64,000 nucleotides of DNA from Hyalangium ruber. Its GTDB lineage: Bacteria > Myxococcota > Myxococcia > Myxococcales > Myxococcaceae. Where the stretch lies: positions 434,001 through 498,000 of the forward strand of contig NZ_JAXIVS010000006.1 in NCBI RefSeq assembly GCF_034259325.1, written 5' to 3'. Within the stretch, counting starts at the first letter, position 1. The number at the start of each line of letters is the position of its first letter. Shown here piece after piece: positions 32,740 to 43,284 of the stretch. Below the pieces are notes generated by a model. It worked only from the letters and a program-made list of their open reading frames with translations. It made no database searches and was not told the DNA's origin. Made by a program: the position numbers and the translations under genes.

Positions 32740-34290
32740 TTACGGCAGCAGCGCGGCCTTGGCCTCGCGGACGTAGCGGCCCTTGGGGAACTCGCGCAGG
32801 TAGCGGCGGTACTCGGTCGCCGCCTCATCCTTGGCCAGCCGCTCCTCGAAGCACCGCGCCCGCAGGTAGCGCGCCTGCTCACGGAACTCGCGAACCGGGC
32901 TCTGCACGGCGATCTCCGCGAGCCCCACCAGGAAGCTCTCGCACGCCGTGGCGTTGAGCTGCTCCCGCGCGTGCCACAGGAAGCGCGCGTCCGTTGTCCC
33001 CGGCTGCGCGACCCCTGGCTCCGGTGGAGTCCAGCGCGTGTCCGGCGCTGACGGGGCCACCACTGTCTCTGTTGGCTCCGGACTCGAGGGCACGGGGTAG
33101 GGCGCGAACTCGGAGCCAGAGGACTCCGGCGCTGAGGGGGCCATGGCCACGGGGGCGGGTTTCTCCTCCGGGGGCGCGCTCGCGGAAGGTTCGGGTTCGG
33201 GAGAAGCGGGGGACACGGCGGCGGCCGGCTCCGGCGCTCGTGCCGGGGAAGGCTCGGCGGGAGCAGGCCGTGGGGCGGGCGTGGGCATGGGTTCCGCCAG
33301 CGGAAGCCCCAGCTCCTGGAAGACCTGACGGTCCTTCGCGGAGAGCGCACGGGCCTTCGGGGTGGGCTTGCCGGAAGTCACCGCCACGCGCTCACCCGCG
33401 TTCACGAGTCGCGGGAGCTGACCGGCGGTCTCGATCTGCACCCTGCCTTCGAGCACGGCCACCACCGCGCCGCGCGCCGTGCGCTCGACGGAGAAGACGG
33501 TACCCACCACGGAGGCGCGTACGCCCGCCGCCTCCACGGTGAAGCCCTTGCGCGCCACATGGGAGGCCCGCACGGTCAACCGTCCCCGCTTGACCGTGAG
33601 GTGGACGTCCTCCGCCACGGTGCGCGCCAGGGTCACCTCCGAGTTGGGAGACAGCCGCACCCGGCTCGCGTCGGGAAGCTGCAACTGGGCGTTGGACTTC
33701 GCCCGCGTTCGCACGGAGGTGCCCGCCTGGAGCTGAGTGCCCGGCTGGAGCAGGCGCTCAGGCGTCTTCGGCTCGCGGATCCACGCTCCCGTGGCGCTCT
33801 CGACCCGGGTCGCGATGAGCGGCGCGGCGGTGGGGGCGGGCGCCTCTGGCGGCACGGGACTCGGGGGCACGGGGGCGGGGGCAGGAGGCTCCTGACGCGC
33901 CACCTGAGGCGGGGGCGTCTCCTCGCGCACCACGGCGACCTTCGGAGGGCTCGGCTGGGGCGGAGGCGCCGCCGGACGCAGCACCACGAAGGCCAGCACG
34001 GCTGCCAGGGCGCCCGTGGCGGCTAGCGCCCACGGCCAACGGGGCCGCTGCTCGAGCCGGGCGAGCCGCTGGGCCGCGGCGCTCTGGAGGCGCTCATTCA
34101 CCTCCGCCCAGCGCACCTCGGGCGACTCCTCCCGCGCCGTGCTCAGCAGGGACTGGGCCCGGCGCAGCTCGGTGAGCTTTTGGGCGCACACCTCGCAGCC
34201 AGCCACGTGCTCCGCCACGCGGGCATTGGCCTCGACCTCCAGCTCGCCCGCGGCGAACGCCCACAGCGCCTCGGTCTCATGGCGTGCCAT
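32740..34290 (-). CDS. Anti-sigma factor with zinc finger, FecR domain and repeats
   Basis: 516 residues, ATG 34290 with GGAGG upstream. The zinc finger is H28-x3-C32-x2-C35, the ZAS module that binds ECF sigma factors. A membrane helix is near residues 83-102. The periplasmic part has a Pro-rich linker, a FecR domain (about 210-310, with SVRTRAKSNAQLQLPD and VVGTVFSVE), a second Pro/Ala/Glu-rich spacer (about 345-430) and a C-terminal tetratricopeptide-like segment (FREQARYLRARCFEERLAKD). It probably holds the sigma factor encoded immediately upstream, whose gene overlaps by 14 bp, and releases it on an envelope signal. Confidence 0.85.
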   Translation of the reverse strand: MARHETEALWAFAAGELEVEANARVAEHVAGCEVCAQKLTELRRAQSLLSTAREESPEVRWAEVNERLQSAAAQRLARLEQRPRWPWALAATGALAAVLAFVVLRPAAPPPQPSPPKVAVVREETPPPQVARQEPPAPAPVPPSPVPPEAPAPTAAPLIATRVESATGAWIREPKTPERLLQPGTQLQAGTSVRTRAKSNAQLQLPDASRVRLSPNSEVTLARTVAEDVHLTVKRGRLTVRASHVARKGFTVEAAGVRASVVGTVFSVERTARGAVVAVLEGRVQIETAGQLPRLVNAGERVAVTSGKPTPKARALSAKDRQVFQELGLPLAEPMPTPAPRPAPAEPSPARAPEPAAAVSPASPEPEPSASAPPEEKPAPVAMAPSAPESSGSEFAPYPVPSSPEPTETVVAPSAPDTRWTPPEPGVAQPGTTDARFLWHAREQLNATACESFLVGLAEIAVQSPVREFREQARYLRARCFEERLAKDEAATEYRRYLREFPKGRYVREAKAALLP

Positions 34291-34984
34291 GGGGACCTCC
34301 GGCGCGGGGCGTGTCGAGCAGTCGCTGCATGGCCTCGGTGAATTCCAGCCGGGCATGGTGCAGCCGGCTGCGGACAGTATTGGCCGAGCTTCCCACAGCT
34401 TCGGCGATCTCGTCCGGCGTCATCCCGCACAGCTCGTAATAGACGAAGACGATGCGCTTCTTGGGTTTGAGCCGCTCCAGGGCCTGCTCTACCAGGCGCG
34501 CCGCCTGTCGCCGCTCGGCCTCCCGCTCGGGGTCCTCATTCGAGGCAAAGGCTTCGGGCGGAGTCGCCACCGGGTCCTCGGGCCGGCGCCGCTTCCAGCG
34601 CAGGTGGGACAGCGCCACGTTGGCGCACACCCGATAGAGGAAGGTGCGGAAGCGTGCCTCGCCCCGGAACCCCTTCACCGCCGACAGCAGCCGCAGGTAC
34701 GTCTCCTGAAGGAGGTCCTCCACATCGGTGCGGTTACCCACCAGGTGGTGCAAGGTGCGCGCGGCGTCCTCGCGGGTGAGCTGGTACAGCCGGTCGAAGG
34801 CGGTGACATCTCCCTGCTGGAGGCGGTGGACCAGGGCTGTCAGCTGACTCTCATCCAGGGAGGGCGCGGGCGCGGGCGTCAGGCCCAGGCGCGCTCCGAG
34901 CGCGGAGGGGGCCTGCGGGGATCGTGCGCCACGGAAGAACAACGGGGAGCCCCCCTCGATGATTTGGACAGTCCAGGCCAGCAC
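34277..34984 (-). CDS. ECF RNA polymerase sigma factor
   Basis: 235 residues, GTG start with GGAGG 4 nt upstream. Region 2 is DVTAFDRLYQLTREDAARTL ... DVEDLLQETYLRLL, and region 4 is LKPKKRIVFVYYELCGMTPD ... TVRSRLHHARLEF. The N-terminal 45 residues are an unusual extension. It is the partner of the FecR-type anti-sigma protein (14-bp overlap). The region upstream holds an AT-rich palindrome at 35025-35045 between this gene and the divergent lipoprotein gene, which may control both. Confidence 0.9.
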   Translation of the reverse strand: MLAWTVQIIEGGSPLFFRGARSPQAPSALGARLGLTPAPAPSLDESQLTALVHRLQQGDVTAFDRLYQLTREDAARTLHHLVGNRTDVEDLLQETYLRLLSAVKGFRGEARFRTFLYRVCANVALSHLRWKRRRPEDPVATPPEAFASNEDPEREAERRQAARLVEQALERLKPKKRIVFVYYELCGMTPDEIAEAVGSSANTVRSRLHHARLEFTEAMQRLLDTPRAGGPHGTP

Positions 34985-38096: not shown

Positions 38097-38783
38097 ATGC
38101 CCAAACGTCCCTCTGCCCAGGAAACCGCTGCCCCCCTCATTCCCCAATCCCCCACGTTGGACAAGCTTCGTGAAGCGGCCGCGGGCTGCCGGGCGTGCCC
38201 ACTGTGGAAGACCGGAACCCAGACCGTCTTCGGCGAGCGGGAGGGGCGCCCCCAAGCGGGTCCCCGCGTCATGTTCGTCGGGGAGCAGCCGGGCGACCAG
38301 GAGGACAAGGCCGGCAAGCCCTTCGTGGGCCCGTCCGGACGGCTGCTCAATGAGGCGCTGGAGACGGTCGGCATCGACCGGCGGCAGGTCTACGTCACCA
38401 ACACGGTGAAGCACTTCAAGTGGGAGGCGCACGGCAAGCGGCGCCTGCACGCCAAGCCGAGCTACGGAGAGATTCGCGCCTGCAAGCCGTGGCTGGAGGC
38501 GGAGATCCGCGTCTTCCGACCGGACGTCATCGTCTGCCTGGGCGCCACGGCGGCGCAGGCGCTGCTGGGCAAGGACTTCCGGGTGACGCGCCAGCGCGGG
38601 CAGCCCCTGCCGTCCGAGTACGCACGCGTGGTGGTAGCCACCGTTCACCCGTCGTCCATCCTCCGGGCGCCCAGTGCCGAGGATCGACGCCAGCAACTCG
38701 CGGCGTTCATCCAAGACCTGAATGGGGTGGCCCGGGTGCTCCGCGACCTGGACGCAAGGGAGGGGGTATCCGCGCACCCCTGA
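38097..38783 (+). CDS. udgX: UdgX-type uracil-DNA glycosylase
   Basis: 228 residues, ATG 38097 with GTGGAG upstream. The core has G62-E-Q-P-G-D-Q-E-D-K-A-G (motif A) and a C-terminal V-H-P-S-S-I-L-R motif. Residues 114-118 are K-R-R-L-H, the R-loop insertion that marks UdgX, where the His forms a covalent bond with the DNA after uracil removal; H118 is the candidate. C31-x-x-C34 with C129 and a later Cys fit the 4Fe-4S cluster. In mycobacteria UdgX stays bound to uracil DNA. The sigma/CHAT operon starts at once downstream; its promoter motif begins at the base after this stop codon. Confidence 0.88.
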   Translation: MPKRPSAQETAAPLIPQSPTLDKLREAAAGCRACPLWKTGTQTVFGEREGRPQAGPRVMFVGEQPGDQEDKAGKPFVGPSGRLLNEALETVGIDRRQVYVTNTVKHFKWEAHGKRRLHAKPSYGEIRACKPWLEAEIRVFRPDVIVCLGATAAQALLGKDFRVTRQRGQPLPSEYARVVVATVHPSSILRAPSAEDRRQQLAAFIQDLNGVARVLRDLDAREGVSAHP

Positions 38784-38809
38784 GGTAATAAATCCGGCGC
38801 TCGGCGTCT
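38784..38809 (+). promoter_or_regulatory. Candidate ECF promoter, copy 1 (before the sigma gene)
   Basis: GGTAATAA, 12 bases, then GCGTCT. The same spacing and near-identical ends occur at 42638 and 43259. Taken as -35 GGTAA and -10 CGTCT, the spacing is about 16 bases, as in ECF promoters. It suggests autoregulation of the sigma gene at 38936, with a leader of about 120 nt. Confidence 0.65.
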
Positions 38810-38935
38810 GGGATTGGCACGAGAGCGCTCATGCCAAGCCTGGGGTCGTCGTTGTCCTCCTTTCTGTTTGAAAAGTCCCTCCCGCTCGAGGTGGCCCATA
38901 TAAGAGGGTGGAAACCGAAGGTACCTCCACACCCC

Positions 38936-39475
38936 ATGAGCAACGATAAGAGCGGACACGGGGCGGGGGAGTTCGCCACGAAGCGCAGGAAGTGGCTCCT
39001 CCTCCAGGCGCGCAATGTGTGCCGCAACGAGAGTGACGCGGAGGACCTCGTGCAGGAGTCCCTCCTGCGCTTCATCCAGGTCTTCGGGAAGATGAATGCG
39101 CTCCCCGAGGACCGGATCTGTGAGTCGTGGCTGGTCACCACCCTCAACAATCTCTTCTTCGACCAGTGTCGGAGGAGGAAGGTGCAAGCCAACGGTGCGA
39201 AGGACCCCACCTTGAGCGACGAGGCGCTGGTGGTGCAGGAACCCGCCGCGCAGCCGGTGTACGACGCGGTCACCGACGAGCAGTTCGCCAAGGCTCTCCA
39301 GGCGCTGAGCCCGAAGATTCGAGCCACCTTCGAGCTGCATGCGGCCGGAAAGAAGTACCAAGACATCTCGCGTTCTTTGGACATCCCCATCGGAACCGTC
39401 GCCAAGCGGCTGCATGACGCCCGCGCGAAGCTGCGGGAGCTCCTTGGGCGCAGCACCACCCCGGGAGTGCACTGA
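38936..39475 (+). CDS. ECF RNA polymerase sigma factor of the CHAT module
   Basis: 179 residues from the ATG at 38936. The frame is open back to 38831, but that stretch has rare codons and much lower GC at third positions, so it is likely leader. Region 2 is RNESDAEDLVQESLLRFIQV and region 4 is ALQALSPKIRATFELHAAGK with IPIGTVAKRLHDARAKLREL. Between them is a variable linker (about 95-120). Its last base is the first base of the next ATG (TGATG), so it is translated with the anti-sigma/CHAT protein. The promoter-like motif at 38784 recurs twice downstream, which points to autoregulation and a small regulon. Confidence 0.9.
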   Translation: MSNDKSGHGAGEFATKRRKWLLLQARNVCRNESDAEDLVQESLLRFIQVFGKMNALPEDRICESWLVTTLNNLFFDQCRRRKVQANGAKDPTLSDEALVVQEPAAQPVYDAVTDEQFAKALQALSPKIRATFELHAAGKKYQDISRSLDIPIGTVAKRLHDARAKLRELLGRSTTPGVH

Positions 39476-42447
39476 TGACCCGTCCCTGCGACCAGGTCGA
39501 GCTCTTCGTAGACGGTGAGCTTCCCCTCGAAGAGGCCGATGCCTTCCGGTTCCACCTCCCGGATTGCCCCCGGTGTCAGCGTGAGATGTCCAACCTCATG
39601 CAGCTTCGGTTGTTGGGGAATCGCTATGTCGAGCGGGAGGGCACGCGTGAAGTCGACGCGGTTCCGCGCCCTCCGGTCCGTGCGCGATGGATGCGCCCGC
39701 TGCTGATGGCGTCGGCTTCCCTCGCCGCCGCGCTGGTGGTGCTCGTCGCGGTGCGCCAGGGTTCCAAACCCTCCTTCGAGAGCGACGTCTGGCTGCTGGA
39801 GCGCCCCCGGCTGTTGGAGGCGCGCGTCAGCTACCGCGATGCCGACCGCTACCGGTCCATGGAATCGAGGAGCATGGGGAGCAAGGGAGCCTCGGCGAGA
39901 CTTCCCCATGGGGACCTGGGCATCCTCGAAGAGAGGGACCCGCGGGGGTTGGTGGCGGCCTACCTGGTTCGCGGCGAGCCAGGGCTGGTGGAGCTGGCGC
40001 TCCAGGAGCTCGATAAGCTGGACGAGGCTCCGGAACCGCGAGACTCGTCGGACCTGGCCAGCGATCGCGCGGTGGCGATGTGGCTCAAGGGCAACCACGA
40101 GGAGGCGCTGAGGCTGCTGGATGCCGCGCTGGAGAAGAACCCGCGCCACGCCCAGGCGCTGTGGAACCGGGGACTGGTGCTGCGCGACCTGCACCTGCCG
40201 TTGCTGGCGGCTCAGGCCTTCTCCGAGGTGGCCGCGTTGAATGAGGAGGGCTGGTCCGGAGAGGCGGCGAAGAATGCCCAGGACCTCCGGGAGGAGCAGA
40301 CGAAGCGGTACACGCGGTGGAATGAGGGAGTCGAGGCCGGCAAGGCCCTCGTGAACGAGGCACCGGACAGCCTCCCAACGGGCTTCGGCCAGAGCCCGGA
40401 TACGCGTCGCTTCTTCTATGATGCCGTCCGGTCCGCCCCCAACCGGGAGCGGGTGCTCGCGCTGCTTCCTCTCGCGCAGGTACTCGATGAGCGGGCGGGG
40501 GGCAGCGTGCTCGAAGGTTACGTGCGCCGGGTCGCGGAGGCGGACTTCTCGCGGCGCGGCCCGCTCGCTCAGGACTACGCGGCCCTGGTTCAAGGGCATC
40601 TCAAGGGGGAGGCCAGGGAGCGCTTCCTCTCGAAGCTCCTGGAATCGAAGGAGGACGACATCCTTCTGGGGGCGTTCTTCGACCAGGGGACCGCCGCCCA
40701 CCACCTGAAGCGCCACGAGGCCATCGTCGCCGCCAACCCGGATCCCTGGTTCCATCTGCTCCTGGCGCATGCGCGCGCGAAGCTTGATCGGGCTCAAGGG
40801 CGCTGGACGAACGCGACCCAGGTGCTCCTCGACGCGCGCGACCGGTGTCCGAAGCCTGGGCTCGAGTACCCCTGCATCTACACCAAGCTCGACCTGTCCA
40901 GCCTCTACATCCGGCTGAACCAGTTCGAGATCGCGCGCACGCACGTCGAGGACGGCTTGAAGGAAGCCCGCGGGAGCAACGCGTGGAAGATGGAGTCGAG
41001 CCTGCTGTGGAACCTGGCGCAGATCGCCCGCGTCCGAGGCGAGGACTCCCTGGCACGCGCCTACCTCAAGGAATTCCTCGAGAGGGAACTCCTCAAGGGC
41101 GCTCAGAAGGACGCCGACACGTTGCGCCGCGTCCACCAGGAACTGGCGGCCATCGCGATACGGCAACTTCGGGTAGATGAGGCCCGGCGGGAAATCGACG
41201 CGGCGATCGACGCGGCAAGCGCCGTGGGCGAGACGCTGTCGCTGCCAGGGAGCTTCGACCTGGCGGATATCTCGCGGCGCAAGCCCGCTGCCAATGACGA
41301 GCAGCACCTGACGAAGGCGGTGGAGAAGCTGCAGAAGGGGCTGAGCCCGGGCGAGCGCCTGGTCGCCAAGCACGTGCTGGGGCGGTTCTACATCGAGCGA
41401 GATGTGGAGAAGGGAAGCTCCCTTCTGAGGGACCTCATCCAGGAAGCGGAGGCGCCGCAACTCAGGGAGGACGGGGCAGCGCGGCGAGCAAGAGCCTATA
41501 GCTTCACCTCCCTGCTTCATGAGGCGGGCAAGCGCAATGCCTTCGAGGAAGCGCTGAAGCTGTTCGCGCAGGAATGGGGCGGGGAACTGCCCCGCCAGTG
41601 CCTGCTGGCGGTCACCGCCGATTCTGGGCGCCTGCTGCTCGTCGCGCGAGGCGTCGACGGTGCATTGGAAGGCCGCCATCAGGAACTGGGTAAGCCATTG
41701 CCCGTGCGCCTCGATAAGACGGTGCCCGAGGAGCTCAAGGGCCTCCTGCGCGCGTGCCCCCAGGTGCAGGTGCTCGCCCGCCCCCCCATTCATGGTCGGG
41801 CGGGGCTGCTCCCGCCGGAGATGGCCTGGAGCTACCTGACGCGCACCCCCGCGCCACGTCCGCAGCGGACCGGTCCGGCGATCCACCTCGTCGTCTCCAA
41901 CGTGGAACTGCCACGCGACGTCCCCTTCAAGCGGCTCAACCCCTGGAGACCCACCTTCGGCCCGAATGAGCAGCGCCGTGAACTCTCGGGCGCGGAGGCG
42001 ACGCCGTCTCGAGTGCTCGAGGCCATGCGGGATGCCACGGAGATCGACCTGGTGGCCCACGGCACCATCAATGAGTCCACCAACGCCTCTTACCTGCTGC
42101 TGGCGTCAGAGCCGGACGGTCCGGAACTGGGCGTGGCCGAGGTGCGCGCCGCTTCGCTCCAGGGGAGTCCTTTCGTGGTGCTGGCGGCCTGCCACGCCGC
42201 GCACACCGCCAGCTCGTTCGACTCCCCCTTCAGTCTCCCGGCCGCCTTCATCGAGGCAGGTGCGCGAGGGGTGCTCGCCTCGACGGTGGAGATCCCCGAT
42301 CAGGAGGCGGAGAAGTTCTTCAACGCGGTTCGCGAGCGCATGCGCTCAGGCACCTCTCCCGTTCAGGCCCTCCGAGAGGAGCGTCTGAAGTGGTTGAGTG
42401 CGGGGCAGGGCACGCAGTGGCTCGATAGCGTTTTGTTGTTCGAATAA
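39475..42447 (+). CDS. Anti-sigma zinc finger - membrane helix - repeat - CHAT protease fusion
   Basis: 990 residues. A zf-HC2/ZAS module fills 1-45, with C5 and H27-x3-C31-x2-C34, the usual ligands of cytoplasmic anti-sigma domains. A membrane helix spans about 75-93. Then come helical TPR-like repeats (about 190-650; for example GNHEEALRLLDAALEKNPRH). The C-terminal 290 residues are a CHAT domain, with a catalytic-type His862 in L-V-A-H-G and Cys906 in L-A-A-C-H-A, 44 residues apart as in caspase-like peptidases. So sensor repeats and protease face the periplasm and the sigma-binding end the cytoplasm, if topology follows the single helix. It overlaps the sigma gene by one base. I infer that it holds the sigma factor; substrate and trigger are unknown. 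Confidence 0.88.
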   Translation: MTRPCDQVELFVDGELPLEEADAFRFHLPDCPRCQREMSNLMQLRLLGNRYVEREGTREVDAVPRPPVRARWMRPLLMASASLAAALVVLVAVRQGSKPSFESDVWLLERPRLLEARVSYRDADRYRSMESRSMGSKGASARLPHGDLGILEERDPRGLVAAYLVRGEPGLVELALQELDKLDEAPEPRDSSDLASDRAVAMWLKGNHEEALRLLDAALEKNPRHAQALWNRGLVLRDLHLPLLAAQAFSEVAALNEEGWSGEAAKNAQDLREEQTKRYTRWNEGVEAGKALVNEAPDSLPTGFGQSPDTRRFFYDAVRSAPNRERVLALLPLAQVLDERAGGSVLEGYVRRVAEADFSRRGPLAQDYAALVQGHLKGEARERFLSKLLESKEDDILLGAFFDQGTAAHHLKRHEAIVAANPDPWFHLLLAHARAKLDRAQGRWTNATQVLLDARDRCPKPGLEYPCIYTKLDLSSLYIRLNQFEIARTHVEDGLKEARGSNAWKMESSLLWNLAQIARVRGEDSLARAYLKEFLERELLKGAQKDADTLRRVHQELAAIAIRQLRVDEARREIDAAIDAASAVGETLSLPGSFDLADISRRKPAANDEQHLTKAVEKLQKGLSPGERLVAKHVLGRFYIERDVEKGSSLLRDLIQEAEAPQLREDGAARRARAYSFTSLLHEAGKRNAFEEALKLFAQEWGGELPRQCLLAVTADSGRLLLVARGVDGALEGRHQELGKPLPVRLDKTVPEELKGLLRACPQVQVLARPPIHGRAGLLPPEMAWSYLTRTPAPRPQRTGPAIHLVVSNVELPRDVPFKRLNPWRPTFGPNEQRRELSGAEATPSRVLEAMRDATEIDLVAHGTINESTNASYLLLASEPDGPELGVAEVRAASLQGSPFVVLAACHAAHTASSFDSPFSLPAAFIEAGARGVLASTVEIPDQEAEKFFNAVRERMRSGTSPVQALREERLKWLSAGQGTQWLDSVLLFE

Positions 42448-42637
42448 GCCACACGTCCGAGAGGACGCGGAGAGACGCACGTGCGCCAGGTCGGTGCGCG
42501 TGCGTTTCCTTTTGCGGGTCCAACCTCTCCCGAGGGATTCAGTCATGGTCCTGAATGTCTCGAAGTGATGACATTTCTGCATTTACCCAACTTCCTTGGT
42601 TGGATGGCGGCAGAGGAAAAAAAAGACCTGGTAGGGA

Positions 42638-42663
42638 GGTAAGAAACCAACTCGGCCGCGTCT
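42638..42663 (+). promoter_or_regulatory. Candidate ECF promoter, copy 2
   Basis: GGTAAGAA, 12 bases, then GCGTCT followed by a T-run. It matches copies at 38784 and 43259 in sequence and spacing and lies 53 bp upstream of the GTG at 42717, giving a leader of about 45 nt. Confidence 0.7.
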
Positions 42664-42716: not shown

Positions 42717-43232
42717 GTGAACAAGGCTCAGCAGACCCGCTCACTCAAGTCGTCCGGCATCAGCTCCATGAACAGCATGGGGGACGTGACTCCCCATGAC
42801 CACGGGGAGACGGAACCGCCTCCGGAGCCCAAGCGGGGGAAGATCGTCCTCCGGACGGACGTGGTGAGCATCTTCGTGGAGGTCGACATCAACGACTCCA
42901 CGGGGGCGGCCAGTTGGCCCGAGGACAGCGGTGCCCCGCGGGAGCTGATGATCGTGCCGCTGCCCGACGGCGAGGAGTTCCTGGCCTTCGGGCTGGTGCA
43001 TGAGGCGACGATCAGCCGGGTGTCGTTCGTGGCCTGGGGCCTGGGGCGCGATCAGCTCGAGCTCCTCATGGACCAGTTGTCCGGCGATGCGGACTCCGTG
43101 ACGTTCTACGCCCAGCCGCCGCAGCAGAGCCTTCAGACGTACATCTCCACCTACTTCCCCAGCGGCACCCTGCATGCCTCCTCGCTGCAGTGGCGGGTGA
43201 AGGGGCTCATCCGCTCGGCCTTCCTCAGTTGA
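42717..43232 (+). CDS. Protein of unknown function, candidate output of the sigma/CHAT module
   Basis: 171 residues from the GTG at 42717, which AAGGA precedes by 7 nt; the longer frame to 42555 spans the promoter-like motif and is rejected. The N-terminal 40 residues are polar and Ser/Met/His/Glu/Pro-rich and probably disordered. The rest (about 42-171) alternates short strands and helices, for example K-I-V-L-R-T-D-V-V-S-I-F-V-E-V, with no signal peptide or membrane helix. I do not recognise the family. Its position, 269 bp after the CHAT gene with the sigma-type promoter motif in between, suggests that the sigma factor drives it. It could be an effector or a CHAT substrate, but nothing in the sequence proves either. 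Confidence 0.65.
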   Translation: MNKAQQTRSLKSSGISSMNSMGDVTPHDHGETEPPPEPKRGKIVLRTDVVSIFVEVDINDSTGAASWPEDSGAPRELMIVPLPDGEEFLAFGLVHEATISRVSFVAWGLGRDQLELLMDQLSGDADSVTFYAQPPQQSLQTYISTYFPSGTLHASSLQWRVKGLIRSAFLS

Positions 43233-43258
43233 GCGCGACGTGGAAACGGGAGCGGCCA

Positions 43259-43284
43259 GGTAAGAATTTTTCCGCTCCACGTCT
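43259..43284 (+). promoter_or_regulatory. Candidate ECF promoter, copy 3
   Basis: GGTAAGAA, 12 bases, then ACGTCT. It lies 26 bp after the stop of the unknown gene and 231 bp upstream of the transsulfuration gene start at 43516. The long leader makes the controlled gene uncertain; a small RNA or a leader is possible. Confidence 0.55.

Follow-up and report, generated by a model that had tools for sequence, protein, structure and literature searches.

We analyzed a 64,000-nucleotide stretch of the 10.77-Mb genome of the myxobacterium Hyalangium ruber (contig NZ_JAXIVS010000006.1, positions 434,001 to 498,000; hereafter the window), focusing on an extracytoplasmic function (ECF) sigma factor gene and the gene directly behind it, which encodes a 990-residue anti-sigma factor with a caspase-like CHAT domain in the same chain. 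Judged by its sequence, this protein is a new relative of DdvA, the transmembrane anti-sigma factor of Myxococcus xanthus, and not the first of its kind. We consider it probable that it works as a DdvA-type switch, in which signal-gated cleavage of the periplasmic linker by the built-in CHAT domain, probably in trans, would be followed by release of the sigma factor. The basis for this reading is the domain anatomy of the chain, its homology and fold match to DdvA, an invariant His/Cys dyad, a conserved partner gene, and promoter elements together with their placement. The features of the locus are as follows.

38782..38808, plus strand: ECF-type promoter element before the sigma gene, with -35 GAGGTAATAA and -10 CGTC; exact pattern match, predicted to be active.
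38936..39475, plus strand: ECF sigma factor gene, 179 amino acids from ATG 38936; Pfam sigma70 r2 (4e-8) and r4_2 (1.5e-10), and a sigma-family profile match.
39475..42447, plus strand: DdvA-type transmembrane anti-sigma gene, 990 amino acids; matches DdvA end to end (E = 4e-175), with 8rot_A as best fold match.
39475..39639, plus strand: zinc-binding anti-sigma (ZAS) domain of the zf-HC2 type, residues 1-55 (C5, H27, C31, C34); ligands kept in 61/61 chains, helices 4-12, 18-30, and 32-55 in the model.
39697..39753, plus strand: membrane helix, residues 75-93; hydrophobic stretch at about these residues, and DdvA was solved as a transmembrane protein.
39754..39825, plus strand: residues 94-117, a juxtamembrane linker that contains R112 and R117 and is the proposed region of cleavage.
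39907..41577, plus strand: TPR superhelix, residues 145-701; Pfam TPR (TPR_2, 8e-7), helical repeats in the model.
41590..42444, plus strand: CHAT domain, residues 706-990; Pfam CHAT, with codons for H862 at 42058-42060 and C906 at 42190-42192, a dyad kept in 69/69 chains.
42636..42662, plus strand: second ECF-type promoter element (GAGGTAAGAA-N13-CGTC), upstream of the partner gene; exact pattern match.
42717..43232, plus strand: partner gene, 171 amino acids, GTG start uncertain, no named family; found directly after an anti-sigma/TPR-CHAT gene at 27 loci in 24 genomes.
43257..43283, plus strand: weaker third element (CAGGTAAGAA-N13-CGTC) just past the partner gene; one mismatch.

An earlier note on this DNA had described a sigma/anti-sigma pair with the CHAT domain inside the anti-sigma chain, and both the Pfam domains and the coordinates agree with that description. 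The TGA of the sigma gene ends at 39475, the A of the anti-sigma ATG, giving the one-base overlap that had been claimed; ATG 38936 is a possible start of the sigma gene, with a further in-frame ATG upstream at 38831. Within the chain, zf-HC2 matches residues 8-35 (1.7e-6), the ZAS signature H-x3-C-x2-C is present with its upstream Cys or His ligand, and C5, H27, C31, C34, H862, and C906 all stand at the positions given to them. Pfam matches, hydropathy, and DdvA homology together place a ZAS domain, a single membrane helix, TPRs, and a CHAT domain, in that order, in one chain.

The same note knew of no described example of this combination, a statement that did not survive, as the window chain is a full-length homologue of DdvA, which has been studied together with its sigma factor DdvS. 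In a sequence search of solved structures, residues 3-990 aligned to 4-991 of "CHAT domain-containing protein" (8rot/8rw5, the latter a dimer per its title) at the E value listed above, and residues 3-61 aligned to "Antisigma factor DdvA" (8rlz). The AlphaFold2 model of the chain, made with 36 aligned relatives (predicted local distance difference test [pLDDT] 85.5, predicted template modeling score [pTM] 0.80), had the cryo-EM structure of transmembrane DdvA (8rot_A) as its first Foldseek match (E = 6.5e-49, template modeling score 0.77), followed by Csx29 of Craspase and then human separase. Compared with viral proteins, the model gave only generic TPR matches. The window system and DdvS/DdvA share the full-length domain order, zinc ligands, dyad, and fold, a sigma gene directly upstream, and a small partner gene directly downstream (for ddvA, in locus L119). 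They differ in sequence (38.5% identity over 968 columns) and subclade, and ddvA lies amid C25-like, CHAT-SAVED, and CD-NTase genes, whereas the window copy is without these neighbors. Inactivation of DdvA releases DdvS (PMC4374960), and DdvS governs an antiphage island of cyclic oligonucleotide-based antiphage signaling system (CBASS) and CRISPR genes (PMC12288465).

Conservation was gauged on a set that contains the window chain and DdvA and comprises 39 fused chains, 30 with CHAT only, and 22 with ZAS only. Every one of the 69 chains that carry CHAT has both H862 and C906, and most of these chains are only ~40% identical to the window chain; this bears out the dyad named in the earlier note. 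H27, C31, and C34 are likewise invariant in the 61 ZAS-bearing chains, and position 5 is Cys or His. Just 22 of the 291 columns in region 700-990 are invariant. The constancy of dyad and zinc ligands is not a matter of chance, and additional fused chains agree at these positions wherever the residue is present. The invariant dyad argues for a working dyad, without proving activity.

In the proposed switch, the cytoplasmic zinc finger would bind the ECF sigma factor and keep it inactive. If topology and dimer can be taken over from DdvA, the chain would span the inner membrane once and hold its TPR-CHAT part in the periplasm, where a signal would be received, presumably by the TPR superhelix. 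The H862/C906 dyad would then cut the flexible juxtamembrane linker, most likely that of the dimer partner (in trans) and perhaps near R112, and intramembrane and cytoplasmic proteases would finish the anti-sigma factor, freeing the sigma factor. Once free, the sigma factor would start transcription at two elements, that of its own operon (38782) and that of the partner gene (42636). In relatives, this module would drive CHAT effectors and CBASS genes as well. Since the effector and CBASS genes are gone at the window locus, the likely output here is self-amplification plus the partner protein. Stepwise release of a membrane anti-sigma factor after a periplasmic cut is known from RseA/DegS/RseP, where a distinct serine protease makes the site-1 cut. 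The window system would follow the same stepwise course, but its chain itself carries a candidate site-1 protease of the cysteine type. A 2024 paper on DdvA reportedly describes dimers in which incomplete CHAT sites lie opposite one another, and proposes cleavage in trans before RseP.

The linker is predicted to be disordered at residues 90-113, right after the membrane helix, and its R112 is Arg in 61/61 anti-sigma chains. Of the CHAT-only chains, 15 have Arg at this position and the other 15, which form the clade of the split loci described below, have Ala or Ser; no other position within 95-275 shows such a contrast between anti-sigma and CHAT-only chains. As the contrast reflects one evolutionary event in which the Arg shifted by one, we treat R112 only as a hint at where a cut may lie, and not as evidence that one occurs.

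Several points weigh against cleavage by the built-in CHAT domain. The Pfam CHAT match (residues 834-976, 4e-19) covers only positions 122-269 of the 289 in the profile, and the authors of the DdvA work reportedly called its active site incomplete. Proteolysis by the window CHAT domain is a prediction, DdvA is not known to have been shown to cleave, and a caspase-type cysteine protease in the periplasm would be unusual. Half of the CHAT-only chains likewise have Arg in the R112 column, and the split-locus clade has its Arg one position later through that single event. The partial profile match and the reportedly incomplete site of DdvA would suit a TPR-CHAT part that serves as a sensor or scaffold with no useful protease activity, while a separate site-1 protease makes the cut or the zinc finger lets go by conformational change. 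Sigma genes paired with a ZAS-transmembrane-TPR gene that lacks CHAT (L019 on contig C2 of the same genome, L057, and L058) indicate that such a switch is possible with no CHAT domain in the anti-sigma chain. However, a mere scaffold would need no His and Cys that stay constant in 69 of 69 chains of mostly ~40% identity, and a CHAT-less anti-sigma gene adjoins a TPR-CHAT gene in 14 split loci and on contig C7 of the window's own genome. We regard the sensor or scaffold explanation as unlikely, though it deserves real weight.

We give much less weight to the partner protein (42717-43232) as the main substrate or ligand of TPR-CHAT, whose cleavage or binding would gate the switch. In its favor, every occurrence of the partner domain lies immediately behind an anti-sigma/TPR-CHAT gene, and in other clades the gene behind TPR-CHAT codes for a lipoprotein containing a comparable stretch. 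Still, neither a signal peptide nor a lipobox is visible in the window-clade protein, which would sit in the other compartment, and in relatives the partner gene precedes a gene for a soluble C25-like protein, a likelier partner. The earlier note had also suggested that the chain could double as an executioner, its CHAT domain killing the cell by cutting other proteins. CHAT proteases do act as executioners elsewhere, and the dyad is conserved, but the domain would lie outside the cytoplasm if the DdvA topology holds, and relatives encode C25-like proteins and CHAT effectors in genes apart from the chain, governed by the same promoter element; neither kind of gene stands beside the window copy. 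On these grounds, we rejected the executioner role as the principal explanation and found it unsupported and very improbable. In relatives, the likely executioners are the separate adjacent genes, encoding the C25-like peptidase and CHAT-SAVED or CHAT-nSTAND1 effectors.

Other CHAT systems offer partial parallels to the DdvA-type switch. In type III-E CRISPR systems, the TPR-CHAT protease Csx29 cleaves the sigma-factor inhibitor Csx30, so that here too a TPR-CHAT protease acts on the inhibitor of an ECF-type sigma factor, CASP-sigma (PMC10028731). Unlike the window chain, Csx29 is soluble and RNA-activated, has no zinc finger or membrane helix, and keeps protease and inhibitor in separate chains; sequence identity is 11-13%. 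Sigma genes of the ECF54 group lie near CHAT proteins proposed as sigma regulators, but in that group the CHAT domain belongs to a protein of its own, with no known anti-sigma factor (PMC8999054). The window-clade loci L094 and L099 have a type III CBASS with a CHAT-SAVED effector as neighbor, headed by the same promoter element; the window locus has no such system.

The anti-sigma/TPR-CHAT family is present in 67 of 195 genomes sampled across the phylum, all within one order, and no member was found outside that order among the 195. We saw three builds: the fused chain, a transmembrane-TPR-CHAT chain without zinc finger, and a short ZAS-transmembrane-TPR chain without CHAT beside a sigma gene. 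In the 14 fetched split loci (L022, L023, L035, L039, L041, L046, L047, L049, L051, L054, L055, L061, L064, and L066), which include M. xanthus AM003 (L023), the TPR-CHAT gene lies upstream of the sigma and ZAS-transmembrane-TPR genes, with an opposite-strand cupin_8/JmjC gene in between wherever the gap was read. The window's own genome holds a tight version on contig C7 (L017:6387-10975), the CHAT-less pair on C2, and an orphan TPR-CHAT gene on C29 (L018). On a quick tree of the CHAT-bearing chains, which has long branches and is indicative only, architecture changes four times, with two changes forced by well-supported branches. These two-chain loci are compatible with a protease acting in trans. 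A broader reading, somewhat less likely than not, is one in which TPR-CHAT would be a periplasmic caspase-type site-1 protease able to act in trans and fused and two-chain builds (M. xanthus L023, Corallococcus, the C7 locus) would be interchangeable; for the clade of DdvA and the window, the output would be a promoter-set execution module of caspase-fold and CBASS proteins plus the unnamed partner. Two complete sigma/anti-sigma-CHAT pairs stand in tandem in L026, L038, L040, and L063. Locus L054 (BNCN01000015.1) is titled Comamonas sp. KCTC 72670, yet it is a Myxococcus-like split locus, probably from a mislabelled or contaminated assembly.

The partner-domain profile had matches at 27 loci, spread over 24 of the 145 genomes of the class, and each of them lies directly 3' of an anti-sigma/TPR-CHAT gene, ddvA included; by this placement, the 42717-43232 gene is a dedicated partner of such genes. 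Its protein had no Pfam, NCBIfam, or PDB sequence match, and its AlphaFold2 model, from three alignment rows, reached a pLDDT of 55, with a beta-beta-beta-alpha-beta core alone at 70-79. Window-clade relatives mostly carry two tandem copies of the domain. In other clades, the lipoprotein behind TPR-CHAT has a stretch resembling it (hhalign probability 64%, E = 6.7e-5, 68 columns), which is suggestive of a relationship. Such lipoproteins, of ~200-240 residues, follow the TPR-CHAT gene in L018, L021, L025, L028, L029, L032, L052, L053, and L062.

The promoter-like element that the earlier note had placed at 42638 is real: it lies at 42636-42662 and is the same bipartite element as 38782-38808. 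The pattern GAGGTAAKAA-N11-14-CGTC has these two matches in the window (shuffles, mean 0.00), and they are its only exact matches in the whole genome (reversed pattern, 1). With one mismatch allowed, the window and 25 partner loci (427 kb) contain 28 sites against none for the reversed-pattern control, and 24 of the 28 stand where a sigma, partner, or CHAT-effector gene begins; in L098 and L126, the element precedes all three alike. Because the motif was derived from the window, L071/L090, L076/L095, L094, and L099, the count is partly circular for those loci, though not for the remaining ones. A looser pattern in 12 relative genomes gave numbers equal to its controls and was excluded from the counts. 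With its CGTC -10 and its spacing, the bipartite element is consistent with an ECF promoter. In relatives, genes for caspase-fold proteases and CBASS normally appear to share the promoter of the regulator; the window copy seems to have lost these genes. The third element, at 43257, lies where effector genes begin in relatives and is possibly an orphaned promoter.

All 26 other partner loci have a C25-like caspase-fold gene downstream, and 23 have a CHAT effector within the fetched flanks, CHAT-SAVED or CHAT-nSTAND1 in those tested. The four C25-like proteins compared with Pfam all match Peptidase_C25, and the C25-like peptidase had no PDB sequence match; SHG and ACF motifs are visible in the alignment, with SHG absent from L092. 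This gene is possibly an undescribed defense effector. The C25-like genes at L088:11517-13019 and L119:9770-11194 and their counterparts (gingipain family) had no PADLOC match. CHAT-SAVED, CD-NTase, HORMA, and TRIP13, which make up type III CBASS, occur together in five loci (L094, L096, L097, L099, and L124). DdvA itself is encoded at L119 (100% over 927 residues), where DdvS, CHAT-SAVED, the partner gene, a C25-like gene, and two SMODS cyclases are found as well.

By contrast, the window anti-sigma gene has neither a C25-like gene nor a CHAT effector nor a CBASS gene (CD-NTase/SAVED/HORMA/TRIP13 set) beside it. Its locus is the sole one of the 27 partner loci to lack both the C25-like gene and a nearby CHAT effector, and no match to the C25-like protein was found anywhere in the genome. 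The adjacent defense island is a feature of the DdvA locus and not of the protein family. Upstream, the window is collinear with a relative's genome (G082) over 27.3-42.4 kb; downstream, it runs into a cystathionine gamma-lyase gene whose G082 counterpart is on another contig. The simplest reading is that the effector genes were lost at a rearrangement breakpoint. The genome's only SAVED-domain gene is on another contig (G000:C10:312395-312976, L127) and has no CHAT match.

About 4 kb upstream of the locus, on the minus strand at 32740-34984, another ECF sigma gene lies in the window. The gene behind it is anti-sigma-like, with a zinc-finger-like N-terminus and a FecR-like part, and the pair is also present in the relative L090.

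As far as we checked, in literature apart from the primary DdvA papers, there is no earlier description of the two-chain versions, of the partner gene, or of the promoter wiring. The claim of a first example falls, and in its place the single studied case, DdvA, becomes a family present in about a third of the sampled genomes of the phylum. This family is open to direct tests through its invariant dyad, the predicted linker cut, the natural two-chain versions, and the obligate partner, and the promoter element predicts which effectors get switched on. These loci thereby make testable the question of when bacteria deploy CBASS and caspase-like executioners.

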